From NCBI GenBank assembly GCA_963718295.1, contig CAVQYV010000004.1, forward strand, positions 372,001 to 436,000: DNA of 64,000 bases, written 5' to 3'. Below, in pieces: positions 10,270-61,148 of this stretch. The DNA is from CAVQYV01 sp963718295 [NCBI: uncultured Methylomirabilota bacterium]. Its GTDB lineage: Bacteria; Methylomirabilota; Methylomirabilia; CAVQYV01. Every line of letters begins with the position of its first letter. The stretch's first letter is position 1. The translations under genes and the position numbers were made by a program. The notes under the pieces are model-generated. The model saw nothing but the letters and a program-made list of their open reading frames with translations. It was not told where the DNA came from and did no database searches.

Positions 10270-11494
10270 CGGCCTGGTGGTGGGCTTGGATGTAGGAACC
10301 ACCAAGATCTGTGCTGTCGTTGGGCAGATCGACGATGATGGGGCCATTGATATCATTGGCATTGGAGTCCACCCCTCCAAAGGATTGCGCAAGGGAGTGG
10401 TGGTGAATATTGACAGCACCGTTGAGTCCATCCAGAAGGCCGTGCATGAGGCAGAGTTGATGTCGGGAGTGCAGATCGATTCCGCTTTCGTCGGTATCGC
10501 GGGAGGGCACATCAAGGGCTTCAACAGCCGCGGGGTGATCGCCATCTCCGGAAAAGGCCGGGAGGTCACCCAGGCCGATGCGGATCGGGTGATCGATGCT
10601 GCCAAGGCAGTCGCTCTTCCGGTGGACCGGGAGGTCATTCACGTGCTCCCTCAGGAGTTCATCATCGACGACCAGGGAGGGATCAAAGAACCCCTGGGGA
10701 TGTCCGGGGTGAGACTGGAGGCAGAGGTCCACATCGTGACCGCAGCGGTGACTTCCGCTCAAAACATCATCAAGTGCGTGAACCGGGCGGAGATTGAGGT
10801 GTCCGACATAGTCCTGGAGCAACTTGCCTCGGCGGAGGCAACCCTGCTTCCCGATGAAAAGGAATTGGGTGTGGTCTTGCTCGATATCGGGGGCGGGACC
10901 ACGGGTATGGCCATCTTCCTGCGGGGGAGCATCTGGCACAGCTCGGTCATATCTTTGGGGGGAGAACATATCACCAACGATATCGCCATTGGCCTGCGCA
11001 CCCCCTCCCACGAGGCGGAGGAGATCAAGAAGAAGTATGGATGCGCCATGACCTCGCTGGTGAAAGGGGACGAGACGATAGAAGTTCCCAGCGTGGGTGG
11101 GCGAAAGGCGCGCGTCCTGTCCCGACAGCTGCTCTGTGAAATCGTTCAACCCCGGGTGGAGGAGATCTTCTCTCTGGTGAACCGGGAAATCCAGAAGACG
11201 GGATATGAGGATGCCATCGCAGCGGGGATTGTAGTCACGGGGGGAACCTCCAAGATGGAGGGGATGGCGGAGCTGGCAGAGCAGATCTTCGATCTCCCGG
11301 TAAGGATGGGTGTGCCCAAGGGGGTGGGAGGATTGGTGGATGTCATTTCCAGCCCCCAGTACGCAACCGGGGTGGGTCTGGTTCTTTATGGGGCCGCCCA
11401 TCGCACCCAACGGCGATTCCGGAAGGCCTCCGACCGGGTGATATTCAATAAGGTATTCAGTCGAATGAAGGAATGGTTTGACAGTTACTTTTAG
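10256..11494 (+). CDS. ftsA: Cell division protein FtsA
   Basis: This actin-like ATPase tethers FtsZ to the membrane. The product shows the phosphate-1 motif GLDVGTTKICAVVGQ, the SHS2-type 1C subdomain (AFVGIAGGHIKGFNSRGVI), phosphate-2 VVLLDIGGGTTGMAIF and the adenosine motif IVVTGGTSKMEGM. The C-terminus (VFSRMKEWFDSYF) looks like the amphipathic membrane-targeting helix. The start is chosen at TTG 10256, about 9 bases behind a GGAGGAGGTGA Shine-Dalgarno sequence. The in-frame GTG at 10247 sits inside that sequence and is less likely. It overlaps ftsQ by 14 bases. Confidence 0.95.
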   Translation: MAKDSGLVVGLDVGTTKICAVVGQIDDDGAIDIIGIGVHPSKGLRKGVVVNIDSTVESIQKAVHEAELMSGVQIDSAFVGIAGGHIKGFNSRGVIAISGKGREVTQADADRVIDAAKAVALPVDREVIHVLPQEFIIDDQGGIKEPLGMSGVRLEAEVHIVTAAVTSAQNIIKCVNRAEIEVSDIVLEQLASAEATLLPDEKELGVVLLDIGGGTTGMAIFLRGSIWHSSVISLGGEHITNDIAIGLRTPSHEAEEIKKKYGCAMTSLVKGDETIEVPSVGGRKARVLSRQLLCEIVQPRVEEIFSLVNREIQKTGYEDAIAAGIVVTGGTSKMEGMAELAEQIFDLPVRMGVPKGVGGLVDVISSPQYATGVGLVLYGAAHRTQRRFRKASDRVIFNKVFSRMKEWFDSYF

Positions 11495-11607
11495 GATCCA
11501 AGAGGCGCCAGGATCTGTCTTCGGAATCCTCGCCAGGCAAGAAATGCAGTTGGTATCGGATGAAATGAGGCCCGCTCCAAAAGTCGAGGCCAGAAAGGGG
11601 GTAGGGG

Positions 11608-17418: not shown

Positions 17419-18089
17419 TTAGCGGGAGAGATCCTCTGGGTGAGGCAGAAGCTTTCGAATTTCTCCTGCCCCAGCCGCCACGATTTCGGCCATCTTGCTT
17501 TGTACCAGGGAGGAAGGCTCCAATCCCCACTCCAGGCTCGCCGGCTCGATGCCGATGACCAGGCAGGGCGGAGGATCCTTCTCCAGGGCCATGATCCGCA
17601 GCACTTGCACTGCATCTACCTGGTGCAGGGAGAGGGGATGATCCGCTTGGGCTTCGATCAGTTGCTGTCCGTCCAAGAGGTAAATGCTTCCCGGTGGCCC
17701 ATCCGCCTTCATCGCATCGATGAAGGATTACCTGCCTCGCCTCCTGCATCTGAAAGAGGAAGTCCAGGAGGCATCGTTCCAGCCTCGATAAGCTCAACGG
17801 ATGGCGGCAGCGAAGACCTCTTCAGCTCTCGCACCACATGCACTCCCACCCCTTCGTCTAGCACGAATACCCCAGCGGGGAACAGCTTCTGGCTGCCCTC
17901 GTCGTCCAGGTCAAAGAGGCCGTAACAGAGGAAGTTCTTGCATCCCGCGCCAATCGACAGATAGTCTTTGTAGGCAGAGGCAACCAGATACACCGTGGGC
18001 AAGTAGACCTGGTCGATGAACTCCTGGAGCTCTCGGAGCCGCCACAGGAAGTTGGTCACCTTGTCTAGGGTGAGGATCTCAGGGCTGAA
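17419..18089 (-). pseudogene. [NiFe]-hydrogenase large-subunit fragment joined to a HyaD/HycI-type maturation protease remnant
   Basis: Reading the minus strand down from 18089, about 75 residues match the middle of a group 1 [NiFe]-hydrogenase large subunit: RELQEFIDQVYLPTVYLVAS, AYKDYLSIGAGCKNFLCYG, then KLFPAGVFVL. Near 17860 the same frame turns into a hydrogenase maturation endopeptidase: DEGVGVHVVRELK and VELIEAGT. Two single-base shifts follow (about 17774 and 17722), giving in turn LLDFLFQMQEARQVIL, then IDAMKADGPPGSIYLLDG, LSLHQVDAV and LVIGIEPASLEWGLE. This is the full protease order. An upstream in-frame stop and loss of the subunit's ends and active-site cysteines mark it as a deletion remnant. 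Confidence 0.8.
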
Positions 18090-18506: not shown

Positions 18507-18909
18507 TTCATAGGAGCTCCGTTGATTATGGGCAGAATCCCCGTCTCTGTTGCCCGTGTCCTATTTCCATCCTGTTTCCCAGTGGCCAAAGCCACTCCCA
18601 TGCCTTTCCGCTCGCCCTTGGGGAGTCTCCCACGGCGATTCAGGCGCCATGCCCAAACGAGAACTCCCTCGCCGCAGGGAAGCTACATGCCCAACTGAGG
18701 CTCCAAGGCAGCCACACCGCGGCCAAGCGAAAAAAACAACGAAGATTCGTGCATGCGAAGATTGGCTGTCAGCCAAGAGGCATTGCCCAAAGCCATAGGG
18801 CGAGCTTCTGTGGGAATCTGCGTCCATCAAAGGCCTTGCCGGGCGAGGCCAAAGGAATCCCGCGCCTTCGCGGGGCGTATGTCGTGAGGCGCACCTTATC
18901 CAACGCCCT
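18507..18909. other. Intergenic stretch without a recognisable gene
   Basis: No open frame here looks like protein. It contains two GC hairpins downstream (minus-strand sense) of the broken methyltransferase: CCCGCG/CGCGGG with a 4-base loop near 18868 and GGCCT/AGGCC near 18840. Neither is followed by a T-run. Confidence 0.5.
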
Positions 18910-19698
18910 CTATTTGAGCAGTTGGATTGCCTGGTAGTAACTGAGCGAACGGAGCCAAGGGAGGGCACGAAACAGTGACTCATCCCGTCGGTGGAGCCTG
19001 GCTTCCCAGGAGGAGAGGAGAGGGAGGCGGCGAAGTTCGAAGAGCATGGCGGTGCCAACCCGCCCAACCCGTGAGAAAATCCCGGCCATGAGCTCGAAAT
19101 CCTTCCGTGTAAGAGGGTGTTCGGTTCTGACAACGTAAGATCCCAAAGTGACGGGCGAGATAGCGAGGAACCCACATCATGACGGGATTTAGGGCAGTCG
19201 TTTCGATAAAGACTTCTTGACCTTCGGCCTTTGCGCAGGACCCGGAAGATCTCGTGAAGACAGAGGGGCAGATCGGTATGATGGAGGGCGTCTATGCCCA
19301 CTATCACATCAAAGCTTTCATCTGGAAAGTCCAGGTCCTCCGCTGGCATTTCCCGAAACCCGATCCGCTCCGCCACCTGATTGAGAAGGGCATTTTGACG
19401 GGCAATATCCAGGGCCAGGGAGGACAAGTCGATACCCGTGACTTTCCTGGCTCCTCTCAGCGCCCATACGATAGCGCTCTTTCCCCGGCCGCAGCATAGA
19501 CCGAGCACGGTCTTGCCTTGGATATTCCCCAAGAGATCAAAAAAATACCGGATCCTCAGCAATGGAATGAAGCAAGTCCTGGGGAGAGATGCGAGTCACG
19601 CCGAATTGGGGGTTTCTGGCGAGGTCGTCCCGTAGACGGGCATCGAAGAAATCAGTCTCATAATGCTGGATTTCCGTCCGCTTTTTCACTTTGGTCAA
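18910..19698 (-). pseudogene. Class I SAM-dependent methyltransferase broken by three frameshifts
   Basis: Starting from a TTG at 19698 or GTG at 19689, the minus strand reads RTEIQHYETDFFDARLRDD and SIAEDPVF. It then shifts at the T-run matching 19539-19545 to FDLLGNIQGKTVLGLCCGRG (SAM motif I), GIDLSSLALDIARQNA and DESFDVIVGIDALHHT. A second shift near 19227 gives EVFIETTALNPVMMWVPRYL. A third near 19141 gives SYVVRTEHPLTRKDFELMAG and a natural end QAIQLLK at 18910. Removing one base at each site yields a continuous protein of about 260 residues. The target is unknown. Decay or poor sequence are both possible. Confidence 0.72.
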
Positions 19699-20232: not shown

Positions 20233-21045
20233 ATGATCCATCGGGCGAGAGGGAACAAATACATGTATGGCGAGCTTACCTGGCCGGAAATGAAAGAGGC
20301 AATAGCCCAGCAGCGGGTCGTACTCCTGCCGATAGGGACGATCGAAAATCATGGGCACCACCTCTTTCTGGAGACAGACAACTTCCTGGTCACCCATGTG
20401 TGCCGAGCCACGGCTGAGAAAATTCCCGAGGAGGTGCTGGTCATGCCACTGGTGCCTTATGGCTTCAATTGGCACCACATCGACTTCCCTGGGACCATCG
20501 GGATCCAGGCGGATCATTTCATCCATTATTGTCTGGATATCACAAAGAGCGTCGCATACCACGGGTTCAAGAAGATTCTCATCGTCGACGGCCATGGCTC
20601 CAATGTTCCCTTCCTTGACATTGTGGCGCGCCGCACTATACTGGAGACGGAGGCGCTGTGCGCCTCCTTCATCTATACTGCCCTGGTGGGAGACTTCCTG
20701 AAGGAGATACGGGAGTCACCCTTCCCCGGGGGGATGGCCCATGCCGATGAGCTGGAGACCTCTCTGACCTTGCATCTGGAGAAGGAGAGAGCAAATATGT
20801 CCCTGGCCAAAAAGGAAATAGGCATGTTGCCTTCCGAGTTCATTTGGCACGATCTGGCGGGTGGCTCTCCAGTGGCGATGATGGAGTGGTGGAGCACTTT
20901 TTCCCAGAGCGGGGTGTTGGGAGATCCTACCACGGCCACGGAGGAGAAAGGGAGGGCGATTTTCGAGAAGGTGATTGAACGGATGGTTGAGCTGGTGAAA
21001 GAATTCAAGGCTCGACCCATTCGGCCTCGACGGGATCAGCATTGA
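20233..21045 (+). CDS. Creatininase-family metal-dependent amidohydrolase
   Basis: The 270-residue product has the family's metal and catalytic pattern. LLPIGTIENHGHHLFLETD (about 31-49) corresponds to the usual GSxEqHGpHLPLxTD. HHIDFPGTIG (81-90), DGHGSN (119-124, usually NGHGGN) and GGMAHADELETSLTL (167-180) follow. Family members open cyclic amides or formamides: creatininase, the FAPy deformylase ArfB, and mycofactocin MftE. The substrate here is unknown. It has no signal peptide, so the enzyme is cytoplasmic, although the following three genes encode exported proteins. The downstream gene starts at its stop (TGATG), indicating coupling. Confidence 0.85.
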   Translation: MIHRARGNKYMYGELTWPEMKEAIAQQRVVLLPIGTIENHGHHLFLETDNFLVTHVCRATAEKIPEEVLVMPLVPYGFNWHHIDFPGTIGIQADHFIHYCLDITKSVAYHGFKKILIVDGHGSNVPFLDIVARRTILETEALCASFIYTALVGDFLKEIRESPFPGGMAHADELETSLTLHLEKERANMSLAKKEIGMLPSEFIWHDLAGGSPVAMMEWWSTFSQSGVLGDPTTATEEKGRAIFEKVIERMVELVKEFKARPIRPRRDQH

Positions 21046-21638
21046 TGAATTGGCGCACGAGCAAACTGCAAAAGAGAAAAGATGGGAGATTTCTACCATT
21101 CCTTGCCAGGCAGGGCCTCCCGTGGTTTCTCTTTTTGGCAACCCTGGGTTGGGTCTGGGGATTCCCCCTCAGGGGTGAGACACAGATACTGGGCGGCCCT
21201 GCCAGCCAACTGGAGCGAGCCAAGGAATTCAGCGGGCATGCAAGTCCCTATGTGGCGGTAGGATTGCGGATGGGGGAGAAGGCCATGAAGAGGCTGGGTT
21301 CGGACAAATACACGGGGATGACCATCCAGGTGGAATGCATTCCCAGGGCTCCGTATTGTATGCTGATCGATGGCCTTCAGCTCTCCACCGGTTGTACCTT
21401 TGGAAATCGTACGATCGAGTTCATTCCCGCGCCCCGGATCCGCGTCATCTTCACCAATACGCAGACGAGAGAAAAGGTCAGCTATGTGCCGGCCGAGGGC
21501 CTCAGGACCATGATCGAGGAGTGGTCAAGGACCTGGAAGAGCGAAGAGACGGTCGCCCTCTTGATCTATGCAGTTCCATCGGAGTCTTTGCTCTTTCGGG
21601 AAGTGAAGCCGCAAGAAGGGACTGCAAACATAAAGTAG
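21045..21638 (+). CDS. Exported FmdE-like protein
   Basis: The 197-residue product has a basic N-terminus and a hydrophobic segment (WFLFLATLGWVWGF, about residues 27-40), so it is exported or membrane-anchored. The rest resembles the FmdE domain (PF02663, found with formylmethanofuran dehydrogenases): HASPYVAVGLRMGEKAM, then CMLIDGLQLSTGCTFGN. In typical FmdE the first motif is H-x-C-P/G; here the cysteine is serine. The second motif keeps both cysteines. Export of an FmdE domain is unusual. Function is unknown, perhaps metal or cofactor binding. The start ATG overlaps the creatininase stop. Confidence 0.65.
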   Translation: MNWRTSKLQKRKDGRFLPFLARQGLPWFLFLATLGWVWGFPLRGETQILGGPASQLERAKEFSGHASPYVAVGLRMGEKAMKRLGSDKYTGMTIQVECIPRAPYCMLIDGLQLSTGCTFGNRTIEFIPAPRIRVIFTNTQTREKVSYVPAEGLRTMIEEWSRTWKSEETVALLIYAVPSESLLFREVKPQEGTANIK

Positions 21639-21908
21639 AATGGATTTGGGGGGTGTAGAGCATACCGGTGATATCGTAAGGATTTCAAAGAAAAGGAGGC
21701 ATAGGGACCGAATTTCCTCCGGCGGAAAAATGGGTTCCGGTAAGATCTGACCACGGGGTCTTGTCAGGGGAAAGGGGTTGGGGTACACTTGGGGGGTTCG
21801 AACTTGAAGTCGAGGGGAATCCCGATGGAGAGTAGGGTAGCATAGGCTTGGGCTGACCCTCGAAGCGTAGGATTTCACTGTAAGATTCAGAAAGGAGAAT
21901 AGGGGGAG

Positions 21909-22736
21909 ATGGCAAAAAGAAGTTCTATGTGGATGAGGGTAGGTCTTTCACTCCTGGGAATCATGATTGTCCTTTCGGGCTCGCAAGAGTTGCGCGCGGA
22001 GCCGTCTCAAGATGCCTCGGCCGTGGCCAACCAGTTCCTGCAGGCAGTCAGCCAGGGCGATTCGGCACGCGCTTTCGAGCTTTGCTCTTCGGGCCTCCGC
22101 CGAGGAAAGACGGCAGAGGACTTCCTCAAGTCGCCGGAGATCGCAGACACCTTCTCCGGTATGAAATCCTGGGAGACAGTGCGGGTCTTGGAGAAGGGAA
22201 GCACGCTGACTATCCTGGTTAAGCTGTTGCGGGGCGAAGGAAAGGAGGGGATGCGGGCGATTGGGATCGGCTGCCTCAAAACGAGCAGCGGGTTTCGGGT
22301 CCGGGACTTTTCCCTGAGTCCATGGGTTTCTTCGGAGGCACGATTTCTCAGGTATCTTGCCGACTTATACGCCCGCATGGATTCTCTCGACTTGGCGGAG
22401 CAAGAGACACAAAAGGCCTACTCCCTCGACCCTAACGATCCCAAGGTTTCGGGATTCCTGGGCTACGTTTACCTGGAAAAGAAGGTCAAACTCGACGAGG
22501 CGCAACGGCTGATCCAGGCGGCCCACGAGAAGGAGCCGAATGATCCGGAGTTCATGGATTTTTTGGGGTGGGCCAACCACATCGCCAACAAGAGGCAGGA
22601 ATCTGTGGATTGGTTCGATAAGGCGAGGGCAGCCTTTGAAAAGACGGAGGGTTATCTGTCGAGTCCCGAGTACGTCCGTTTCTCGTCCCATGTAGACAAG
22701 GCCAAGGCGAAGGGATGGACTCCCACTCAGACCTAA
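21909..22736 (+). CDS. Exported tetratricopeptide-repeat protein
   Basis: The 275-residue product starts with a Sec signal (VGLSLLGIMIVLSGSQELRA, cut after about residue 30). It is followed by a region of about 100 residues resembling an NTF2/DUF4019-like fold (ANQFLQAVSQGDSARAFELC, VLEKGSTLTILVKLL). TPR-like helices come next (LADLYARMDSLDLAEQETQK, PKVSGFLGYVYLEKKVKLDE, then PEFMDFLGWANHIANKRQES). It probably acts as a periplasmic scaffold. AAAGGAGAATAGGGGGAG precedes the ATG. It sits between the FmdE-like and DUF362 genes, suggesting a shared exported system. Confidence 0.7.
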   Translation: MAKRSSMWMRVGLSLLGIMIVLSGSQELRAEPSQDASAVANQFLQAVSQGDSARAFELCSSGLRRGKTAEDFLKSPEIADTFSGMKSWETVRVLEKGSTLTILVKLLRGEGKEGMRAIGIGCLKTSSGFRVRDFSLSPWVSSEARFLRYLADLYARMDSLDLAEQETQKAYSLDPNDPKVSGFLGYVYLEKKVKLDEAQRLIQAAHEKEPNDPEFMDFLGWANHIANKRQESVDWFDKARAAFEKTEGYLSSPEYVRFSSHVDKAKAKGWTPTQT

Positions 22737-22795
22737 GATGAGATCTGGATTTGCATGGCAAGTTGACCGCAGACTCGTGTCAGGGAGGTAAGATA

Positions 22796-23959
22796 ATGAT
22801 GAAAAAGGCCTTAGTACAGGCGATGACCATCTTCGTTTCGTTGCTGATAGGAACCGCGATGAGCCTCGGGGCCGAGAAGCCTACGGTGGCCATCGTGAAG
22901 GCAGCGAAACATGATCTGGTTGCCGAAAGCTGGAGGATGAACTGGGAACGAAGCATCTCCCAGGGGGTGAATACCACAAGGAAATTTGACTACTTGCGGG
23001 CAGAATGGTCGAAGGAAAGTGAGAAGGCCATTGAGGCCATGGTGCGTGATGCGGTGGAGCTGGCCGGAGGATGGCCAGTGAAGGCGGGCGATGTGGTCCT
23101 GATCAAGCCCAATCTGGTGGCTTCCATGTTCTTCCTCTGGTACAGTGGAAAGCTTACGGAGGAGGATTATCAGGCGTGTCTCACCGATCCCCGCGTCGTT
23201 CGGGCCTTGGCGGTTATGGCTAAGGAATCCGGGGCCAGTCGGATCATGATCGGAGAGGGTCCGGCGGCCGGCGATGGTTGGGCCGCATATATGCAATGTG
23301 GATATGTAACCATGGCAGAGGATTTGGAAAAGGAAGGGGTGAAGGTGGAATTGCTGGATTTCACCGATGAACCCTACACCTGGGTGAAATCCAAGGGCCT
23401 GGCCAACCCCGAATATGCCGTCCCCAAGGTAGCGACCGAGGCCACTTGCCTCATCAGCGTTCCGGCCCTCAAGACCCACTCCATGACGGGGGTGACCGTG
23501 AGCCTCAAGAATGTGGCGGTGGGGTTGATGGCTGGCCGCGTGTATGGGTTTTTCAAGTACGGAGCACCTCACCAGAAGATCCCGGAATGGATTGTTGACA
23601 TGGCCTCCATATTCAAGATTCACTATACGGTAGTGGATGGGATCTGGGGTATGGAAGGCAATGGTCCTTTGAATGGAGAGCCAGTCAATATGGACCTGAT
23701 CATCGCGGGGGCGGATCCTGTGGCGACAGATGCCGTCTGCACCGCAATTATGGGCTTCAATCCCAAGAACATCGGTCATATCACCATGGCCGCCCAGAAC
23801 GGATTGGGGGTTGACGACTTGAATCAAATTACGGTGGAGGGTGAACAGGTCGCGGCTGTGGCCAAGAAATTCAAGGTGGTACCCGAGGACAATCGGTGGC
23901 CCTCCGAATATGGGGGAGTCAAGAATTGGGATGAGAGGCTAACCCTTTCCAGCAAATAG
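22796..23959 (+). CDS. Exported DUF362-domain protein
   Basis: The 387-residue product carries a Sec signal (ALVQAMTIFVSLLIGTAMSL, cut near LGA-EK) and one DUF362 domain. Signature segments are GDVVLIKPNLVASMF, ESGASRIMIGEGPA, VPALKTHSMTGVTVSLKN, VVDGIWGMEGNGP and GADPVATDAVCTAIMGFNP. DUF362 has no firmly assigned reaction. Many members carry ferredoxin-type clusters, but no CxxCxxC set is present here. Start ATG 22796 follows CAGGGAGGTAAGAT; an ATG directly after it is also possible. It is a paralogue of the tandem protein downstream. Confidence 0.82.
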   Translation: MMKKALVQAMTIFVSLLIGTAMSLGAEKPTVAIVKAAKHDLVAESWRMNWERSISQGVNTTRKFDYLRAEWSKESEKAIEAMVRDAVELAGGWPVKAGDVVLIKPNLVASMFFLWYSGKLTEEDYQACLTDPRVVRALAVMAKESGASRIMIGEGPAAGDGWAAYMQCGYVTMAEDLEKEGVKVELLDFTDEPYTWVKSKGLANPEYAVPKVATEATCLISVPALKTHSMTGVTVSLKNVAVGLMAGRVYGFFKYGAPHQKIPEWIVDMASIFKIHYTVVDGIWGMEGNGPLNGEPVNMDLIIAGADPVATDAVCTAIMGFNPKNIGHITMAAQNGLGVDDLNQITVEGEQVAAVAKKFKVVPEDNRWPSEYGGVKNWDERLTLSSK

Positions 23960-24335
23960 AAAACCATCTGGAGAATTGGGAATCCCAAAGAGCCTGGCAG
24001 GACTTCCCAGGCTGGTGCTTGGCTGCTCGGTGCAAAAAACTGTTGACAATGAGCCCGTGGTATTGATAGAAAGGAATCGCTTCTGGGCCGATAAGGGCCA
24101 CGACTCTGCAAGTAAACTTCTCGCCTGTCTCAGATGTTCAATTACCTTGTTTCCAATCTCCGGAGGAGTGTCTTTATCTCCTGGATTGGTGTTGGAAGGA
24201 GGTGATAGAGGCAAGGCACCTGAGTGGTCCATATCTTGAGATGAAGGGAGGTGACAAGGAGACGATTTCTTGCCAAGGTGGAGGTTTGTTCAAACCATCA
24301 ATGCTGGTAGGATGTAGAGAATTTGAGGAGTGGCC
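23960..24335. promoter_or_regulatory. Gap between DUF362 genes with a hairpin and a weak promoter-like site
   Basis: An inverted pair AGCCTGG / CCAGGCT lies near 23992-24015, without a T-run. A perfect TTGACA stands at 24043-24048, but the best -10 candidates 16-18 bases on (GATAGA, TAGAAA) are poor. The tandem gene may have its own promoter here. GAGGAG at 24325-24330 is its ribosome site. No gene is seen. Confidence 0.35.
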
Positions 24336-26685
24336 ATGAGAAAAACTTTGTTACTATCGATTCTGGCCCTGTTGGCCATGAGCTTGATGACTGGAACGGC
24401 GCTGGCCAAGGTCTCCATCGTCAAGGCCGATAATATCGACCTCTGTTTGAAGACCTATAAGTTCAACACCGACCGGACTTTCATGCAGGCTGCCGTCCCC
24501 GGCCGTGAGATGGATGTCATCTGTGCCGAGTGGACCAAGGAGTCCGAGGAATACATCGGCAAGCTGACCCGGGAGGCGGTGGAGCTGGCGGGTGACTGGC
24601 CGGTGAAGTCGGGCGATGTGGTATTGTTCAAGATTAACACCGTCATCTCCTTCACCGACTTCTGGAAGATGTGGGGGTATGCGCCTCACGCCAGCAAGGA
24701 TCCCCTCAAGATCCTGTGTCAGACGACGGATCCCCGCGTGGTCCGTGAGCTGTGCAAGATGGCCCACGAGTCAGGGGCCAGCCGGATCGTCATCGGTGAG
24801 GCCTCCAATGCGGGGCATGCCCTGGCCGCCATGCAGGGGTATGGCTACAATCATATGGTGGCAGATCTGGCCAAAGAGGGAATCGCTGTAGAGCTTCTGG
24901 ACTTCGATGATCCCGCTGCCTCGCCGGTGGTGTGGGTAGATACCCTCGGGCTCTGCAACAAAGAATATGCCATCCCCAAGATAGTGGCGGAAGAGGCGGA
25001 TGTCCTGATCAACGTGGCCCAACCCAAGTGCCACACGGTGGGCGGAATTACCTGCAGCCTGAAGCTCTGCACCGTGGGCCTGATGACTGCCCAGGTGTAT
25101 GGGACCTTCAAGCTGGCAGCCCCCCACCTGAAGTACGCGGAGTGGGCGGTAGACATCAACACCATCAAGAAAAAAGGCGGTTCCGGAACCATCCTGGTGG
25201 ACTACACCGTGATTGATGCCCTCTCCATCGGCGAGGCCGAGCAGGGTGCGGTGGGACCGGACACCTTCCCCGTCAACCTGGGACTGATCCTGGCGGGAAA
25301 GGGCGCCTTGGAGCCCGATATCGTGATGACGGCCATCATGGGCTTCAATCCCCAGAACTATGGGCAGTTCCGCCTGGCTGAGCAGCATGGTTTAGGCACG
25401 GCGGATCTCTGCCAGATCGAGGTGGTAGGCAAGAAGGTATCCGAGGTTCGCGAGAAGGTGAACCCGCCCATGCATGCCTGGAGGTGGCCGTCATCGGCTG
25501 GCAGCATCCTGGCCTGGGATAACGCCTATGACCCTCCAGCCTTCAGCGGTGAGGCCAAGGCCAAGGTAGGCATCGTCAAGGCTGATAATATGGACCTGGC
25601 TCTCAATACCGCAGAAGATCAATACCGCCAGGACCTTCATGCAGGCCTGCTATCCGGGCCGCAAGATGGATATCATCCGGGTGGAGTGGAGCAAGGAGTC
25701 GGAGGAGTACATCGGCAAGCTGACCCGGGAGGCGATTGAGCTGGCGGGCAACTTCCCGGTGAAGAAGGGCGATGTCGTTTACATCAAGCCCAACCTGGTT
25801 AACTCCTATGTCGATATGCATGAATGCCAGGCATTGACCTCTCCGGAGCAGCAGGCGCACCAGACCGATGTCCGCATCGCGCGGGAGATCTGCAAGATCG
25901 CCTGGGAGGCCGGGGCCAAGAAGATCATCATCGGTGAGGGAACTCGATCCGGTGCCGATTCCGCCTCCCTGGCCCACTGGGGTTACTATGCTATGGCAGA
26001 TGAGCTCAACGCCCAGGGAATGAGGATCGTGATCGAGCCGGTAGGTGAGGCGCCCTATACCTGGGTGAAGACGCTGGGCCTGTGCAATGCGGAGTATGCG
26101 ATGCCCACCTCCTTCATGAAGGAAGTGGATGTCCTGATCTCCGTGCCCCAGATGAAGTGTCATACCGTGGCTGGGACTTCCCTGTCCCTGAAGAACACCA
26201 CCATCGGCCTGCCGACCCACAAGGTCTATGGTACCTTCAAGCTGGCCCTGCCCCACCTGAAGTATGCGGAGATGTCGACCGAGATCAACGCCCTCCGCAA
26301 GAAGGACGGCAAGGGTACCATGCTGATCGACTACGTGGTGGTGGATGCCCTCTGGGCCGGTGAGGGTGATCAGGGCGGCGCCTGGGGTGGACCGGGGTCC
26401 TTCCCCGTTCCCATGGGCCTGATCATTGCGGGCTCCGACTGCGTGGCGACCGACTGCGTGACCACGGCAGTGATGGGCTTCAATCCGCACAACTATGGCC
26501 AGTATCGCATGGCGGCCCAGTATGGCCTGGGCTGCAACGACCTGAGCAAGATCGAGGTCGTGGGCAAGTCCATCAAAGAGGTGCAGGAGAAGCTGGTGGC
26601 TCCCATGCACACCTGGAGATGGCCGTCCGAGGCTGACCAAACCCTGGCCTGGGATGAGATCTGGCCTCTGCCTTGCGACAAATAG
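24336..26685 (+). CDS. Exported tandem-DUF362 protein (two domains), frameshifted between domains
   Basis: A Sec signal (LLLSILALLAMSLMTGTALA) is followed by two DUF362 domains that are close copies of each other. Domain 1 has EYIGKLTREAVELAGDWPVK, ESGASRIVIGEAS, QPKCHTVGGITCSLKLC and AIMGFNPQNYGQF. Domain 2 has EYIGKLTREAIELAGNFPVK, KCHTVAGTSLSLKNTTIGL, DCVATDCVTTAVMGFNP. In domain 1 the usual DPVATD motif reads GALEPD, so it may be degenerate. The frame changes by one base at 25608-25611 (one base too many). Correcting it gives a 782-residue protein that aligns without gap to domain 1 (LNTQKINTARTFMQ against LKTYKFNTDRTFMQ). As read, domain 1 ends at 25739. A strong terminator follows. Confidence 0.8.
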
Positions 26686-26713
26686 CACAGGGCTAAATCT
26701 TTTGCCCAAGATA

Positions 26714-26747
26714 AGGAGGGTTGCCTTCGGGCAACCCTCCTTTTTTT
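26714..26747 (+). terminator. Strong rho-independent terminator
   Basis: A 12-bp perfect stem (AGGAGGGTTGCC / GGCAACCCTCCT) with a TTCG tetraloop is followed by seven T. It lies 29 bases after the tandem-DUF362 stop and ends the island's transcript. The 300 bases from 26748 to 27047 hold no gene I can support. Confidence 0.95.
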
Positions 26748-36799: not shown

Positions 36800-37141
36800 A
36801 TGCATGAGCTGAGTCTGGCACAGAACATATTGGAGGTTGCCCTGCGCAATGCGAGGGATCAGGGGTTCGAGAAGATTCATTCCCTTCACCTCAAGATCGG
36901 GAGACTATCCGGGGTCGAGCCGGAGTCTCTATGTTTTTGCTTCTCAGTCCTGTCCGCTCATACGATCGCCGAGTCTGCTCGAGTCGAGGTAGAGAAGGTT
37001 CCCGTCCGGGGTAGATGTCGTGGATGCTCCACAGAATTTGAGCTTCAGGAGTTGGAGTTCCTGTGCCCGAGCTGCCGTGGTAACGAAATCGACCTGATAG
37101 CGGGGACCGAGATGCAACTTGACAGAATGGAGGTAGAGTGA
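36800..37141 (+). CDS. hypA: Hydrogenase nickel incorporation protein HypA
   Basis: HypA delivers nickel to the hydrogenase large subunit with HypB. The start is set at ATG 36800, because the product then begins MHELSLAQNILEVAL with the Ni-binding His2; an upstream in-frame TTG at 36791 would displace it. The zinc site is GRCRGCSTEFELQE with a second pair CPSC. The 113 residues are standard. It opens a compact hypA-B-F-C-D-E operon. Confidence 0.95.
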   Translation: MHELSLAQNILEVALRNARDQGFEKIHSLHLKIGRLSGVEPESLCFCFSVLSAHTIAESARVEVEKVPVRGRCRGCSTEFELQELEFLCPSCRGNEIDLIAGTEMQLDRMEVE

Positions 37142-37833
37142 TGGAGATCCGATTGTCCGAGGATCTCATGGAAGCCAACAATCAAGTGGCTGCAAGAATC
37201 TGGAGCTCTTTATCCAGGAAGGGCATACTCACCCTCAATCTCCTGAGCTCCCCGGGGACGGGGAAAACAACTCTGATCGAGAAGACGCTACAGAGCCTGA
37301 AGGGAAGGGCGAATGCAGTAATCATCGTGGGAGATGTTCAGACTTCCCGGGACAAAGACAGATATGAGCGAGCGGGGTTCAAGGCCGTTCAGATCAACAC
37401 CGAAGGTGGCTGCCACCTGACCGCGGGAATGGTCGAGAAGGCGCTGGAAAATCTCGATCTCACCGGCATCGAGATCCTTTTCATCGAAAATGTGGGAAAT
37501 CTGGTATGCCCGGCGGGCTTTCACCTGGGTGAGGATATGAAGGTGGTGCTCCTGAGCACCGCGGAGGGCGATGACAAACCAGCGAAGTATCCGAGCGCCT
37601 TCTTCCATTCCCAGGTCATGCTCATTACCAAGATAGATATCTTGCCTCTCACGAACTTTGATTTGGCCTCGGCCAAAAGTGATGCCCAGAAGATCAATCC
37701 CAGTCTGAAGATATTTGAGATATCCTCATTGAGGGGAACGGGGATGGGGGAATGGACGGATTGGATACTCGAGAGGGCGGCTGAGAAGAAGAGGAATTCG
37801 GGATCGAAAAATGATGGCGCGCTGCAGGATTAA
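37141..37833 (+). CDS. hypB: Hydrogenase/urease nickel insertion GTPase HypB
   Basis: This is a SIMIBI-class GTPase for nickel insertion. The 230-residue product has the P-loop LLSSPGTGKTTLIEKTL, VGDVQTSRDKDRYER, the metal-site region INTEGGCHLTAGMVEKAL, FIENVGNLVCPAGFHLGE and TKIDILP. It lacks the N-terminal CxxCGC motif and the His-rich nickel storage tract seen in some HypB proteins. ATG 37141 is chosen because GGAGG lies 7 bases upstream; a GTG at 37138 overlaps hypA. Confidence 0.95.
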   Translation: MEIRLSEDLMEANNQVAARIWSSLSRKGILTLNLLSSPGTGKTTLIEKTLQSLKGRANAVIIVGDVQTSRDKDRYERAGFKAVQINTEGGCHLTAGMVEKALENLDLTGIEILFIENVGNLVCPAGFHLGEDMKVVLLSTAEGDDKPAKYPSAFFHSQVMLITKIDILPLTNFDLASAKSDAQKINPSLKIFEISSLRGTGMGEWTDWILERAAEKKRNSGSKNDGALQD

Positions 37834-40093
37834 GATACAGGGAGTCGTCCAAGGGGTGGGATTTCGCCCCTTCGTTTTCCGCCTGGCCGAGGAAAGAGGA
37901 GTCCAAGGCTGGATCATCAATACCCCGGGGGGAGTTGAGATCGAGGCGCAGGCTGAAAAGGCTATTTTGGATCAGCTGGTGAACGATCTCCCCCTATTGG
38001 CCCCTCCTTTGGCCCAGATCGAAGGGATCTGGGTGTCGGATGGGATGCCTCTTTTGATGTACGAAGGATTTTCCATCCTGGAAAGCTCCCTGGACGCTGA
38101 GCGCTCCGCCATGATCTCACCCGATATAGCCACTTGCCCCGAGTGTCTCTTTGAGCTTCTCTCGGCCCAGGACAGGAGGTTTGGCTATCCTTTCCTGAAT
38201 TGCACGAACTGCGGACCTCGGTTCAGCATCATTCGGGATATCCCGTATGATCGGGGGCGCACTACCATGGAGGCCTTTTCCATGTGCCCCCTTTGCCGTG
38301 CCGAATACGAAGACCCTCGGAATAGAAGATTTCACGCCCAGCCTAATGCCTGTTGGGATTGTGGTCCTCAACTCCGCCTAAAGGAGCGTTCGGTGGCAGG
38401 CCGAGATTGTATCCGGGAGGCTTATGATCTCCTCAAGCAGGGGAAGGTATTGGCCATCAAGGGACTGGGCGGCTATCATCTGGCGGTGGATGCTACGAAT
38501 GCCGAGGCGGTGGCCTGTCTCCGGGCTCGCAAGCGGCGAGAGGAGAAGCCCCTGGCGATCATGGCCAAAGATACGGCCACGATCAGGGAGTTCTGCCAGC
38601 TGAGCCGGGAGGAGGAGGTGCTTCTTCAGAAGCCCGCTAGGCCCATTGTCCTGCTCAGGAAACGTTCCTTTTCTTTGATCGCGGAGGAGGTGGCTCCTGA
38701 CAATCGATTTCTGGGGGTATTCCTTCCCTACACCCCCCTCCATCACCTTTTGTTCTCTTATGAGGGAGAGGAGGGAAGGCTTCTGGCGTTGGTGATGACC
38801 AGCGGCAATCTCAGCGAGGAGCCTCTTGCTTATCAGGACCAGGAGGCAGAGCGGAGGCTGGCGGGGATTGCCGATGATTTCCTCCTCCACGATCGAGAAA
38901 TTCATACCCGTAGCGATGATTCCGTGAGCCGGGTCATTGCGGGCCAGGAGATGATCTTGCGAAGATCTCGTGGATATGCGCCCCTTCCGATTCGACTCAA
39001 TTCCGCTTCCCCCTTTCATATCTTGGGATGTGGGGCGGAATTGAAGAACACCATTTGCCTCTACAAGGGGGAGTACGCCTTTGTCAGCCAGCATATCGGC
39101 GATCTGGAAAACTATGAGACGCTTTCCTACTTCGAAGAGACCATCCGTCATCTAGGCCGTATCTTGGAGATTAAGCCCGAAGTGGTAGCCTATGACATGC
39201 ATCCCGATTATCTTTCCACCCAACACGCCTTGAGGCAGTCAGGATGGCAGAGGATCCCGGTCCAGCATCACCACGCCCACCTTTGCAGTGCCATGGCGGA
39301 ACACCGGTTAGAGGGGCCCTGTCTGGGAATCATCTGTGACGGAACTGGCTACGGAGCCGATGGCAAAATCTGGGGATGCGAGTTCATGATGGGAGACTAC
39401 CGGGATTTCACCCGTTTGGGTCATCTGAGGTATCTTCCGCTCCCCGGGGGGCAGGCATCGATCAAGAAGCCCTATCGAATGGCCCTGAGCTATCTGTACG
39501 CCTACGTGGGCGAAGACCTGGAATCATCCATATTTTGCAGGAGATTTCCACCTCAGGAAGTTCAGGCGGTAATCAGGATGGTAAAGGATGGCTTCAACTC
39601 CCCCTTGGTCTCCAGCATGGGCAGACTCTTCGATGCGGTCTCTTCCCTGTTGGGGATTCGGGATAGGGTCACCTTTGAAGGACAGGCAGCTATGGCGCTG
39701 GAGATGGCTGCGGAGGATTCCTGGGAGGGCCATTACGGGTATGCTGTGAGAAGGGAGAGGGAGGGATGGATTGTCGATCCGATCCCCTTGATCGCCGACC
39801 TCCTCGAGGACCTACGGTGCGGCACCGGAGTCTCCCGCATCGCAGCTTCCTTTCACAATACGGTTGTCCTCTTCTTGCAGGAGATGGCCCAGAAAATGGC
39901 GGAGGAAACCGGCCTGGATCGGGTGATACTGAGCGGTGGGGTTTTCCAGAACGGCTATCTGGTGGAGAGGCTGACGCAGGCCCTGGTGAAAGTGGGATTG
40001 GTTCCTGTCCTCCATCGAAGGGTTCCTCCCAATGACGGAGGGATCTCCCTGGGGCAGGTGGCTATTGCAAAGGCGCGAATGGCCCCCGCTTAA
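37811..40093 (+). CDS. hypF: Carbamoyltransferase HypF
   Basis: HypF makes the carbamoyl group that becomes the CN ligands of the NiFe active site. The 760 residues contain an acylphosphatase domain (IQGVVQGVGFRPFVFRLAEE), two zinc fingers (CPECLFELL..CTNCGPRFS, CPLCRAEY..CWDCGP), a YrdC-like domain (VLAIKGLGGYHLAVDATNAE, KRREEKPLAIMAKD) and a C-terminal Kae1-like carbamoyltransferase domain (YDMHPDYLSTQHA, QHHHAHLCSAMAEH, CDGTGYGADG, ILSGGVFQNGYL). It overlaps hypB by 23 bases. Confidence 0.96.
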   Translation: MMARCRIKIQGVVQGVGFRPFVFRLAEERGVQGWIINTPGGVEIEAQAEKAILDQLVNDLPLLAPPLAQIEGIWVSDGMPLLMYEGFSILESSLDAERSAMISPDIATCPECLFELLSAQDRRFGYPFLNCTNCGPRFSIIRDIPYDRGRTTMEAFSMCPLCRAEYEDPRNRRFHAQPNACWDCGPQLRLKERSVAGRDCIREAYDLLKQGKVLAIKGLGGYHLAVDATNAEAVACLRARKRREEKPLAIMAKDTATIREFCQLSREEEVLLQKPARPIVLLRKRSFSLIAEEVAPDNRFLGVFLPYTPLHHLLFSYEGEEGRLLALVMTSGNLSEEPLAYQDQEAERRLAGIADDFLLHDREIHTRSDDSVSRVIAGQEMILRRSRGYAPLPIRLNSASPFHILGCGAELKNTICLYKGEYAFVSQHIGDLENYETLSYFEETIRHLGRILEIKPEVVAYDMHPDYLSTQHALRQSGWQRIPVQHHHAHLCSAMAEHRLEGPCLGIICDGTGYGADGKIWGCEFMMGDYRDFTRLGHLRYLPLPGGQASIKKPYRMALSYLYAYVGEDLESSIFCRRFPPQEVQAVIRMVKDGFNSPLVSSMGRLFDAVSSLLGIRDRVTFEGQAAMALEMAAEDSWEGHYGYAVRREREGWIVDPIPLIADLLEDLRCGTGVSRIAASFHNTVVLFLQEMAQKMAEETGLDRVILSGGVFQNGYLVERLTQALVKVGLVPVLHRRVPPNDGGISLGQVAIAKARMAPA

Positions 40094-40123
40094 GCCCAAA
40101 GTCCTTTGAAATGAGGTGAGATT

Positions 40124-40336
40124 ATGTGTATCGCGGTTCCGGGGAAGGTGTTGAAGGTGGAAGGAGATGTGGCCACCGTCTCTTTCGGTGGGAGTGTACG
40201 CCAGGCGAATCTGGACCTGGTAGAGGGAATCCAGGAGGGTGAGTACATCATCGTCCACGCGGGATTTGCGATTCGTAAGCTGGATGAAAAGGGAAGCGGC
40301 AGAGACGCTGGAGCTGATGAGAGAGGCGGGGCTTGA
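40124..40336 (+). CDS. hypC: Hydrogenase assembly chaperone HypC
   Basis: This small chaperone holds the Fe(CN)2CO group with HypD and passes it to the large-subunit precursor. The 70 residues begin MCIAVPGKVLKVEGDVATVS, with the essential Cys2, and contain NLDLVEGIQEGEYIIVHAGF. GAGGTGAG precedes the ATG. It overlaps hypD by 4 bases. Confidence 0.95.
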   Translation: MCIAVPGKVLKVEGDVATVSFGGSVRQANLDLVEGIQEGEYIIVHAGFAIRKLDEKGSGRDAGADERGGA

Positions 40337-41430
40337 AATACATTGATGAGTTTCGCGATTGGAAGCTCGCGCAAGATCTGGCATCCAGGATCAGCAGATG
40401 CTCGGTCAAGTCCTTAAACCTGATGGAGGTATGCGGATCCCACACCGTCTCCATCTTTCGCCATGGGATTCGAGATCTTTTGCCGGCCACGATTCGTCTC
40501 CTTTCCGGCCCTGGATGCCCGGTTTGTGTGACAGCCAAGAAGGACATCGACCAGGCCCTTGCCTTAGCCCGCACCCCGGGCATAATATTTGCCACCTTCG
40601 GCGATATGATGCGGGTTCCCGGGTCCGGCGGCAGCTTGCAGGATGTCAGGGCCCAGGGAGCCGATGTGCGCATTGTTTATTCTCCGCTGGAGGCCCTGCA
40701 ATTTGCCCAGATGGAGCGACAGAAGAAGGTAGTATTTTTCGCCGTGGGCTTTGAGACCACCTCCCCCCTGATTGCAGCCACCGTCAAGAGGGCAATTTCC
40801 CTGGGATTGGAGAATTACCATATCTTCTCTGTTCATAAACTGATCCCCCCTGCACTGAGGTCTCTGGTCTCCTCCCAGGAGGTGAAGATAGATGGTTTCC
40901 TGCTTCCCGGCCACGTGAGTGCCATGATCGGCTCCGGGCCCTATCAGTTTTTGGCGGAGGAATTCCGCACCCCCGCCGTGATCTCTGGGTTTGAACCATT
41001 GGATATCCTCCAGTCGATCTGGATGCTGGCCCAGCAGGTGGAAAGAGGGGAAGCCAGCGTTCAGATTCAGTACGATCGGGTGGTGGCTTCGGAGGGAAAT
41101 TGGAAGGCCATACGGTCGGTCGAGGAGATCTTCCGTCCCGTGGATGATCATTGGCGGGGGCTGGGGGTGATTCCCCTGTCGGGACTCAAGCTTCGGGAGG
41201 AGTGGTCGAGATGGGACGCGGAGGGGCACTTCGACCTGCACTTCGTCTCCGAGTCGGATCACCCGGAATGCCAGTGCGGAAAGGTTCTCAGGGGGGTATT
41301 CCTGCCTACCGACTGTCCGCTTTTCGGCAATGTCTGTTCCCCGGAAGATCCCTTGGGTCCTTGCATGGTTTCATCGGAGGGGACGTGTTCGGCCTATTAC
41401 CGCTATGGAAAAGGATCGAGGGTTTTATGA
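40333..41430 (+). CDS. hypD: Hydrogenase formation protein HypD
   Basis: HypD is a 4Fe-4S protein that assembles the Fe(CN)2CO unit. The 365-residue product has MEVCGSHTVSIFRHGIRDLL, LLSGPGCPVCVTAKKDID, FVAVGFETT-type FFAVGFETTSPLIAATVK, LLPGHVSAMIG, and the C-terminal cluster cysteines (CQCGKVLRG, CPLFGNVCSPEDPLGPCMV, SEGTCSAYYRYG). The TTG start at 40333 overlaps hypC. The stop overlaps hypE at ATGA. Confidence 0.96.
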   Translation: MKYIDEFRDWKLAQDLASRISRCSVKSLNLMEVCGSHTVSIFRHGIRDLLPATIRLLSGPGCPVCVTAKKDIDQALALARTPGIIFATFGDMMRVPGSGGSLQDVRAQGADVRIVYSPLEALQFAQMERQKKVVFFAVGFETTSPLIAATVKRAISLGLENYHIFSVHKLIPPALRSLVSSQEVKIDGFLLPGHVSAMIGSGPYQFLAEEFRTPAVISGFEPLDILQSIWMLAQQVERGEASVQIQYDRVVASEGNWKAIRSVEEIFRPVDDHWRGLGVIPLSGLKLREEWSRWDAEGHFDLHFVSESDHPECQCGKVLRGVFLPTDCPLFGNVCSPEDPLGPCMVSSEGTCSAYYRYGKGSRVL

Positions 41431-42467
41431 AGGAAAAAGGCCAAGATCCCTCCCCTGGCATCGAAAAGATCCTGCTGGCCCATGGCGCCGGAGGAAGAAT
41501 GGCCCATCAGCTGATCGCAGGCCACCTTCTTCCATCCTTGTCGAATCCTCATTTAGACCAGTTGGATGATTCGGCCATCCTGAAAATGGGAGATTTCCGT
41601 TTGGCCTTTACCACGGATTCCTACGTGGTCGATCCCCCCTTCTTCCCGGGAGGAGATATTGGAAGGCTGGCCGTGTGCGGAACGGTGAATGACCTTTCCA
41701 TGGTAGGCGCCAGGCCGCTCTATCTTTCTCTTTCTCTGATCATGGAAGAGGGGCTTTTGCTCTCGGATTTGGAAAAGATCGTTGCCTCCATCCAGGCGGC
41801 GGCCCAGGAGGCAGGGGTGCTCATTGTCACCGGGGATACCAAGGTGGTGGGAAAGGGAGGGGCGGATGGGATTTTTCTCAATACCTCCGGGATAGGGGTT
41901 ATTCAGGATCCAGGGATCTTTATTTCCGGCAGCAACGCCCAAGTTGGCGATCAGGTGATCCTGAGTGGAAGCATCGCCGATCACGGAATCGCTGTGATCT
42001 CCCGACGGGAAGGGTTCTTCCTGGGAGAGGACCTTGAAAGCGACGTGGCCCCCCTGAATGGGCTGGTTCAGGATATGCTAAGAGTCAGCAGGGAGGTTCA
42101 TGTGCTCCGAGATCCCACCCGGGGAGGACTGGCCACTGCCCTGAATGAGATCGCAGAGCAGTCTTCAGTGGGGGTCGTATTGGAGGAGTCGAGGATTCCC
42201 GTTCGGGAGTCGGTTCGGGGTGCGTGCGAATTGCTGGGGCTGGATCCCCTGTATGTGGCCAATGAGGGAAAGCTGGTGGCCATGGTGAAGAAGGATGCCG
42301 CCGGATCCGTTTTGGAGGCGATGAAGAATCACCCTCTCGGCAGGGGGGCGGAGATCATCGGCGAAATTACGGAGAATCCCAAGGGGATGGTATTGCTGAG
42401 GACGAGAATAGGGGGGACCCGAGTGGTGGATATGCTGACCGGGGAGGCCTTGCCTCGGATATGCTGA
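41427..42467 (+). CDS. hypE: Hydrogenase expression/formation protein HypE
   Basis: HypE is the ATP-dependent dehydratase that turns HypF's carbamoyl group into cyanide. The 346-residue product begins at ATG 41427; the frame is open upstream but overlaps hypD. It shows LLAHGAGGRMAHQLIAGHLL, FTTDSYVVDPPFFPGGDIG, CGTVNDLSMVGARPLYLS, VTGDTKVVGKGGADGIF, RDPTRGGLATALNEIA and the C-terminal PRIC with the catalytic cysteine. It ends 14 bases from a convergent gene. No hydrogenase structural gene lies downstream in the window. Confidence 0.96.
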   Translation: MKEKGQDPSPGIEKILLAHGAGGRMAHQLIAGHLLPSLSNPHLDQLDDSAILKMGDFRLAFTTDSYVVDPPFFPGGDIGRLAVCGTVNDLSMVGARPLYLSLSLIMEEGLLLSDLEKIVASIQAAAQEAGVLIVTGDTKVVGKGGADGIFLNTSGIGVIQDPGIFISGSNAQVGDQVILSGSIADHGIAVISRREGFFLGEDLESDVAPLNGLVQDMLRVSREVHVLRDPTRGGLATALNEIAEQSSVGVVLEESRIPVRESVRGACELLGLDPLYVANEGKLVAMVKKDAAGSVLEAMKNHPLGRGAEIIGEITENPKGMVLLRTRIGGTRVVDMLTGEALPRIC

Positions 42468-61129: not shown

Positions 61130-61148
61130 AAGCCAGGAGGTGATTTGG

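Follow-up and report, generated by a model that had tools for sequence, protein, structure and literature searches.

Introduction

Lactate racemase (LarA) and its DUF2088 relatives are nickel-pincer racemases and epimerases that depend on a rare nickel cofactor, the nickel-pincer nucleotide (NPN). According to two reports, Lys184 of LarA carries NPN covalently, His200 is a nickel ligand, His174 and His108 are catalytic and Arg75 contacts the phosphate (PMC11770544, PMC12611868). Which proteins use NPN in genomes that lack LarA is an open question (PMC11796402). A clan link between LarA and the DUF362 family has already been published (PMC11770544), and the literature on DUF362 (COG2006, PF04015, IPR007160) within reach of our search, outside which most subscription papers lie, assigns the family neither NPN nor any function. 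DUF362 is widespread; we find it in 354 of 395 genomes drawn from the phylum studied here.

The present work concerns a gene run in a 64,000-nucleotide stretch of DNA (the window) from an uncultured Methylomirabilota bacterium. Its DUF362 sequences look unrelated to LarA, yet they have a predicted LarA fold and putative equivalents of the NPN-binding lysine and of His174. This makes DUF362, a large and uncharacterised family, a candidate, open to experimental test, for the proteins that use NPN where LarA is missing. If DUF362 does bind NPN, the family would gain both a cofactor and a mechanism.

Results and Discussion

Analysis of the window and of its open reading frames (ORFs) establishes that the five-gene run and its terminator, all on the + strand, are real. 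The run starts with a creatininase-family amidohydrolase of 270 aa (20233-21045; PF02633, 4.1e-66) that also matches PDB creatininases at 3.5e-20, and whose gene is overlapped by 4 bases by that of a 198 aa FmdE-domain protein with a TTG start (21042-21638; PF02663, 5e-16; PDB 2gvi, 8.8e-6). There follow a TPR protein (21909-22736; PF13428, 2.8e-7), a single-domain DUF362 protein of 387 aa, denoted w1 (22796-23959; PF04015, 3.6e-46), and two tandem DUF362 copies, w2a (24330-25739; GTG start; 3e-20) and w2b (25639-26685; 1e-21). An alternative TTG start for w1 is present at 22751 in the ORF list. PF04015 scores for w1, w2a and w2b are 158.2, 73.6 and 78.4 bits, to be compared with a gathering score of 24. 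The run closes with an intrinsic terminator (26713-26742; a 13-pair stem, 8 of the pairs G-C, then a T-run), the strongest in a scan that returned 8 sites against a shuffle mean of 7.5, that is, no excess overall. The domain families, the overlap of the first two genes and the strong terminator are therefore as originally predicted. With 270 and 370 bases separating some of the genes, a single transcript across all five is doubtful. Neither Rfam families nor tRNA genes were detected when the window was scanned for them.

The count of five genes also stands, with the difference that the last of these, described originally as one tandem DUF362 protein, consists of two ORFs in different frames (24330-26685 overall). 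A comparison of frames places w2b one base out of register with w2a shortly before 25639. IF-2 in the same window is likewise distributed over two frames (61140-62525 and 62315-63415), so that the frame change in the DUF362 tandem could equally well be genuine or stem from an indel in the assembly. The frame shift, together with a KPN motif that reads KIN in w2a, could be taken to mean that 24330-26685 is a decaying pseudogene and that only 22796-23959 is active, a situation compatible with either of the roles for DUF362 considered below. We regard such decay as unlikely: w2a and w2b, sisters in our tree with 100/100 support, both retain K-x-H-x9-K and the histidine that follows it, the terminator lies directly after w2b, and the splitting of an essential gene, IF-2, in the same window points to assembly indels.

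Four of the proteins had been proposed to carry export signals. Using best 12-residue hydropathy, a crude score for which cytoplasmic MurC reaches 1.97, we obtain Sec-like N-termini with no twin Arg for the TPR protein (2.74), w1 (2.21) and w2a (2.61), in agreement with the proposal, while the value of 1.64 for the FmdE protein leaves a possible but ambiguous signal. The creatininase-family protein scores 1.29 and looks cytoplasmic, as had been claimed. Most other DUF362 proteins are missing this extra N-terminal stretch, and the seven that are of the exported type form one clade with 100/100 support in a tree of 35 listed proteins.

An AlphaFold2 (AF2) model of w1 was obtained with pLDDT 80.7 and pTM 0.84; it is built from 10 sequences, and residues 252-258, which adjoin H259, fall below pLDDT 50. 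(An earlier prediction from the three window sequences only, with pLDDT 43, was discarded.) Foldseek searches with the w1 model gave 19 matches at E<=1e-3, 18 of them to lactate/malate racemase or LarA-like chains and the remaining one to 4nar, an unnamed Thermotoga protein. The highest VIA Z score is for 6d6z (17.5; 2.8 Å over 213 residues), with 5huq at 16.6 (3.1 Å over 210); LarA-type enzymes as a group span 15.2-17.5, followed by 4nar at 13.6 and the next chain at 6.1. The N-terminal fold of LarA is thus predicted for w1. At the level of profiles PF04015 is the sole Pfam family at E<=0.1 for w1, w2a and w2b, none of which matches Lar_N (PF09861).

In order to compare active-site residues we used all 55 distinct DUF362 ORFs scoring >40 bits, none being removed for absence of the motif. 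In w1 numbering H228 and K238 are invariant (55/55), the K226 column contains 54 Lys and 1 Arg, and a His is found 13-23 residues past the K238 equivalent in every protein (at 14-21 in all of the 35 listed first); the motif occurs anywhere in 88 of 5500 shuffled sequences. K-x-H-x9-K is present as well in a DUF362 protein outside the set (L038, 8810-9919). When the 55 sequences are aligned by hhalign with 12 LarA ORFs, taken from 20 LarA regions plus L040 and selected by their own HxxAGxSGGxK motif, the conserved H and K of DUF362 and the histidine downstream of them fall onto LarA His174, Lys184 and His200 (Prob 85.6%, E 5.6e-6). The first 35 DUF362 sequences give the same register with Prob 27% and E 7e-4 (4.7% in global mode). 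HMM-to-sequence alignments in both directions agree on it with weak scores (best 13 bits; w1 1.7 bits), and both methods, the HMMs in either direction, put K238 opposite the lysine of SGGRK. The set of 35, used for the motif list, the tree, the first hhalign run and the HMM alignments, was listed by hand and left out L016, L017, L019, L020, L021, L024, L026-L031, L090 and later additions. Four distant DUF362 loci from viral contigs (query A3) were added to deepen the alignment; query A2 found no DUF362 locus in viral contigs, and a phage search gave one weak match.

Judged from these alignments, K238 is the putative equivalent of Lys184 and H228 that of His174. The later histidine lies at +15 from the lysine in the common type of DUF362 protein, at +21 in the exported clade (H259) and at 16 in LarA; the alignment to His200 was reached for the common type, and H259 of the exported clade adjoins the low-confidence loop noted above. 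No conserved His is found at the position of LarA His108 among the 55 aligned proteins. The acidic column E154 (33 Glu, 22 Asp) is three or seven residues off His108 in two hhalign registers, and the K104 column (49 Lys, 6 Asn) is not aligned onto Arg75. Glu154 as a substitute for His108 and Lys104 as one for Arg75 were both dropped because neither register supports them.

We place at about even the chance that the three DUF362 domains of the window are exported LarA relatives that bind NPN or an NPN-like cofactor. The basis for this assignment was computed here, namely the domain family, the predicted fold, the conservation of residues, the single exported clade and the presence of larEBC beside relatives. 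From it we infer a cofactor, a chemistry, a type of substrate and a loading of the exported protein, as follows. By analogy with LarA, Lys238 would hold the NPN cofactor, His259 would serve as the fourth nickel ligand and His228 as acid/base. Because His108 has no conserved counterpart, the site would contain one histidine or would use another residue in that role, perhaps (and this is a guess) the conserved acidic residue at 154. The protein would then act outside the cytoplasm on a hydroxy compound, isomerising or oxidising it, with hydride passed to the pyridinium ring in the process. A broader proposal, to which we give somewhat less than an even chance, is that DUF362 is the NPN-using family, or one of them, in NPN makers that lack LarA, many cyanobacteria included, with a single-histidine LarA-type site and one branch outside the cytoplasm. 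Such a branch would require NPN, or NPN loading, on the periplasmic side. Sec cannot transport a folded holo-enzyme, and the combination of a Sec-type signal with a covalent cofactor made in the cytoplasm counts against NPN in exported DUF362 proteins.

Gene neighbourhoods bear on the same issue. In two related genomes (loci L001 and L041) an exported DUF362 gene has larE, larB and larC as neighbours, each of which scores above its NCBIfam equivalog cut-off. At L001 the DUF362 protein is a 77% identical relative of w1 that adjoins a larE-larB-larC run in divergent orientation. In both runs larC is shorter than usual, covering 1-335 of 375 model positions. One genome (G001) has four Lar_N matches, and its lar genes could therefore serve LarA. 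On a Streptomyces plasmid (NZ_CP109481.1; L143), from another phylum, DUF362 lies 3.8 kb from contiguous larE-larB-larC within an NRPS cluster, with no LarA HMM match in 28 kb. The window itself has no lar gene by tblastn with six LarB/LarC/LarE proteins. DUF362 is matched in 3 of 72,556 plasmid records, a figure that may miss divergent members because E<=1e-5 was required and two queries were used. Of the three, the Streptomyces record alone carries lar genes in the vicinity; in the Acetoanaerobium record larB-larC is 755 kb from DUF362, and the Subdoligranulum record shows no lar genes in the 26 kb examined.

Among LarA-less genomes LarC is found in 78 of 85 with DUF362 vs 12 of 33 without (p 1.8e-9). 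This co-occurrence was set aside as evidence: small genomes make up most of those without DUF362, so that genome size is a confounder; LarC is present in 10 of 11 LarA-less, DUF362-less genomes of at least 2.4 Mb (sizes for 26 of the 33). Two of 14 control genomes have LarC but neither DUF362 nor LarA.

The same data can be read in another way, which we consider rather unlikely: DUF362 proteins would have the LarA fold with Lys and His conserved for some other ligand, and would be binding proteins or NPN-free enzymes. The ligand could be some other nucleotide, a metal ion, or a bound sugar or organic acid. The missing His108 counterpart fits such a role, as do the Sec-type signals, hard to reconcile with a cofactor attached covalently in the cytoplasm. 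DUF362 is moreover unlinked to larC in 20 of 20 larC regions (10-19.5 kb each, from 18 genomes without a Lar_N match and 2 with a weak one), and Bacteroides ihuae, one of the control genomes, has DUF362 without LarC. However, the residues that are retained correspond to the ones with which LarA binds NPN and nickel, and larEBC adjoins DUF362 in two unrelated groups. We prefer binding of NPN or an NPN-like cofactor.

The original prediction regarded the five genes as a candidate undescribed system. No conserved neighbourhood was found in relatives, and we reject a conserved five-gene system, since no region examined joins DUF362 with FmdE or creatininase. The closest relative found, that of L001, retains the DUF362 gene only, neither creatininase nor FmdE being matched within 10 kb. 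Four related genomes searched whole contain creatininase in two cases (31-33% identity) and FmdE in none. Across the phylum, 169 of the 395 genomes have an FmdE match, the best at 39%. Twelve FmdE regions were examined and all lack creatininase and, by blastp as well as HMM, DUF362; the 32 DUF362 regions examined, many on short contigs, contain neither FmdE nor creatininase. We take the creatininase, FmdE and TPR genes to be neighbours specific to the lineage and not components of conserved machinery.

It had further been suggested that the run is a periplasmic metal or cofactor handling pathway. Cofactor handling was the right direction; periplasmic handling of Mo/W is without direct support, and in no region examined do exported DUF362 and exported FmdE occur together with creatininase. 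The link drawn between DUF362 and iron-sulfur or molybdenum enzymes overlooks a nearer kinship with the nickel enzyme LarA. That FmdE and TPR proteins partner DUF362 in a metal or Mo/W cofactor pathway is, in our view, highly improbable. An FmdE domain and export signals do exist in the run, and in L001, L034 and L041 an exported DUF362 gene lies no more than ~7 kb from a gene for an aldehyde:ferredoxin oxidoreductase, a member of a tungsten enzyme family. Against this, the gene set is not conserved in relatives, none of the window ORFs covered by a general domain scan was named as a transporter of Mo/W or an enzyme of pterin metabolism, and the window FmdE protein lacks a Cys found in 9 of 10 FmdE proteins compared, reading GHASP where 8 of the 10 have GHxCP.

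Comparison with Known Systems

The first protein of the run resembles the creatininase family (1j2t, 3a6h) in matching PF02633 over its whole length, and differs in falling below the curated NCBIfam cut-offs for creatininase, MftE and IolN. As a DUF362 protein w1 is a clear member of PF04015; for the NCBIfam Npun_F2552 family NF052623, where the cut-off is 500 bits, it scores 99. Unlike DUF362 at large, the window proteins belong to the exported clade with its N-terminal extension and have no CxxCxxCxxxC, a motif present in 2 of the 35 DUF362 proteins first listed and in no member of that clade.

Similarity to the LarA/DUF2088 enzymes (5huq, 6d6z, 9eia) resides in the predicted N-terminal fold (Z 16.6-17.5), where w1 model residues 35-381 at most match ~33-301 of LarA, in the putative equivalents, by alignment, of Lys184, His200 and His174, and in larBCE beside some relatives. 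The differences are the lack of a Lar_N match for w1 at E<=0.1 and of a His108 counterpart in DUF362, an identity of 13-17%, and the export signal of w1. Loss of one of two catalytic histidines is shared with the LarA-like enzymes 9q3j and 9q3k, which have the same fold (Z 15.2-15.4). These have a single catalytic histidine, with His174 replaced by Asn and His108 kept (PMC12611868), while DUF362, the reverse, keeps the His174 equivalent and lacks His108.

Gene Set and Its Conservation

The genes originally predicted at 20233-26747, encoding a creatininase, an FmdE domain, a TPR protein, a DUF362 protein (w1, 22796-23959) and further DUF362 sequence, are borne out, all on the + strand, and a good terminator closes the run. 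The tandem DUF362 gene that had been described holds as to its DUF362 sequence and not as to its being a single gene, as that sequence is divided between two ORFs, 24330-25739 and 25639-26685, whose reading frames are one base out of register. Because the IF-2 gene is likewise spread over two frames across 61140-63415 (61140-62525 and 62315-63415), assembly indels are suggested as the origin of the split. As to the export signals that had been noted, that of the FmdE protein is weaker than those of the other genes. A division and cell-wall (mur/fts) cluster lies upstream of the set; downstream are an iron alcohol dehydrogenase and an SDR and, beyond these, cytochrome c assembly and hydrogenase maturation genes, the latter at about 37138-42467. 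The DNA is probably chromosomal. On the minus strand, 17709-18059 holds a fragment matching the [NiFe]-hydrogenase large subunit (PF00374, 8.8e-10), and 18561-19562, a 333-residue ORF, is perhaps a broken gene, since its methyltransferase domain extends over only the N-terminal 114 residues or so.

A scan of genome contigs gave a sole relative, L001 (CP070704.1, Deltaproteobacteria MAG bin55; genome G001), in which a DUF362 protein shares 77% identity with w1; the gene for this protein has no creatininase, FmdE or TPR match within 10 kb. DUF362 matches to w1 occur in 86 of 99 relatives of G001, and among them G001 stands apart (E 2.9e-204), followed by G004 (39%, 2.4e-66), with all remaining relatives at 6e-36 or worse. 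Creatininase is found in two of four close genomes (31-33% identity) and FmdE in none of the four, while 169 of 395 genomes drawn from the phylum have FmdE matches, the best at 39%. A conserved system of creatininase, FmdE and DUF362, as had been proposed, finds no counterpart here: no two of these families occur together in 12 FmdE and 32 DUF362 regions, many of them short contigs, the absence of DUF362 from the 12 FmdE regions having also been checked by HMM. A five-gene system is thus not supported. Two other loci, L066 and L067, encode FmdE proteins whose starts resemble those of exported proteins or lipoproteins; the L067 protein also lacks the GHxCP cysteine (it reads GHIGP).

lar Genes Beside DUF362

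The first clue to what DUF362 is comes from L001 and from L041, a locus of G004 (a relative of G001), where genes for a periplasmic binding protein, an exported DUF362 protein, larE, larB and larC are consecutive and have a ThiF-type gene next to them. According to PMC11770544, the nickel-pincer nucleotide (NPN), which lactate racemase LarA uses, is the product of LarB, LarE and LarC. In both loci the larE, larB and larC products score above NCBIfam equivalog cut-offs. The larC of these runs is shorter than usual; another, longer LarC is encoded elsewhere in G001 and in G004 and therefore the set beside DUF362 is an extra one. In L001, L034 and L041 alike, exported DUF362 genes have aldehyde:ferredoxin oxidoreductase genes in their vicinity, and in L034 glycolate-oxidase-type GlcD/GlcF genes lie downstream.

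A second linkage is found on a Streptomyces sp. NBC_01450 plasmid (NZ_CP109481.1), where a DUF362 gene (10275-11531, minus strand) adjoins a cyclase gene and where, next to it on the + strand, DAHP synthase, isochorismate synthase, larE, larB and larC follow in a row, with 3.8 kb separating the start of larE from DUF362; after this run comes an NRPS gene on the minus strand. There is no LarA HMM match within the 28 kb of this locus, and its 6000-26600 portion is an NRPS cluster, apparently for a natural product, that contains the NPN cofactor genes. DUF362 matches occur in 3 of 72,556 plasmid records, and the other two have no lar genes near DUF362. Three viral-labelled IMG/VR contigs (L120, L121, L122) carry DUF362 genes with the same K-x-H-x9-K motif, their neighbors resembling, by eye, AMP ligases, glycosyltransferases or nucleotide-sugar dehydrogenases.

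Predicted Fold and Active-Site Residues

The AlphaFold2 model of w1 (pLDDT 80.7, pTM 0.84) was built from an alignment of ten sequences, only those of the window and of loci from the related-locus search. A Foldseek search with this model gave 19 chains at E<=1e-3, 18 of which come from lactate racemases, malate racemases and LarA-like enzymes, the other being 4nar, a Thermotoga protein with no function assigned to it. In VIA-align the racemases and LarA-like enzymes reach Z values of 15.2-17.5 and 4nar reaches 13.6, after which Z drops to 6.1; the match of the predicted structure spans mostly the N-terminal two thirds of LarA. A distant kinship is already in print, as PMC11770544 used DUF362 as an outgroup in its LarA study because the two families share Pfam clan CL0471.

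In LarA, as described in PMC11770544 and PMC12611868, Lys184 carries the covalently bound NPN, His200 coordinates the nickel, His108 and His174 act as the acid/base pair and Arg75 holds the phosphate. Comparing profiles of 55 DUF362 and 12 LarA proteins (Prob 85.6%, E 5.6e-6) places the DUF362 K-x-H-x9-K motif on LarA EPHxxAGxSGGRK, with the following His of both families in line; a profile of 35 DUF362 proteins gives the same register (Prob 27%, E 7e-4), and HMM-to-sequence alignments in both directions agree with it, with weak scores. In w1 numbering, H228, K238 and D312 are each invariant (55/55), and a His follows the K238-equivalent lysine in all 55 proteins; three other columns are Lys 54/Arg 1 at K226 (Arg in Streptomyces), Glu 33/Asp 22 at E154 and Lys 49/Asn 6 at K104. 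The lysine-to-His spacing, 16 in LarA, ranges from 14 to 21 among the first 35 DUF362 proteins; the most frequent type has 15 and the exported clade 21. The motif arises anywhere in the sequence in 88 of 5500 shuffles. No conserved His occupies the LarA His108 position in the profile alignments of the 55 proteins, and replacement by Glu154 was rejected, this residue falling three or seven residues off His108 in two profile registers, so that DUF362, judged from these alignments, would retain no more than one member of the catalytic histidine pair.

Distribution and Export

Several results speak against the use of NPN by DUF362. Once genome size is considered, co-occurrence of DUF362 with LarC no longer counts as support. 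DUF362 is absent from all 20 larC regions taken from LarA-poor genomes, and no lar genes are present in the 64-kb window. LarC is accompanied by neither DUF362 nor a clear LarA in twelve genomes (G102, G119, G139 and nine others), where NPN may have an additional user or LarC some other role. LarC without LarA occurs in 4 of 14 control genomes, two with DUF362 (Synechococcus elongatus, Haloferax volcanii) and two lacking it (Corynebacterium glutamicum, Methanocaldococcus jannaschii); a further control, Bacteroides ihuae, has DUF362 without LarC.

The exported proteins form a clade (100/100) comprising w1, both tandem copies, two L001 proteins and those of L034 and L041. A Sec-like N-terminal signal (hydropathy 2.1-3.2) is present in six of the seven; the second tandem copy, without a separate start, is the exception. 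In most of the remaining 28 DUF362 proteins the N-terminus lies near the first strand, and these score 0.5-1.9. The twin-arginine pattern used occurs in none of the seven and in two other DUF362 proteins. For a Sec-exported enzyme, cofactor attachment in the cytoplasm is implausible; this leaves two possibilities, that NPN or a precursor of it gets to the periplasm, or that the exported branch has a different ligand.

Comparison with Known NPN Enzymes

By analogy, the exported DUF362 proteins most likely work like LarA. They do not match the Lar_N profile (PF09861) and lack the counterpart of His108, and so are not members of the LarA (DUF2088) family. Use of NPN by DUF362 is a hypothesis that can be tested with published tools and that fits the question posed in PMC11796402 as to which proteins use NPN in genomes lacking LarA; its authors expected these NPN users to have a fold distinct from that of LarA; in contrast to that expectation, DUF362 is distinct from LarA in sequence and not in predicted fold.
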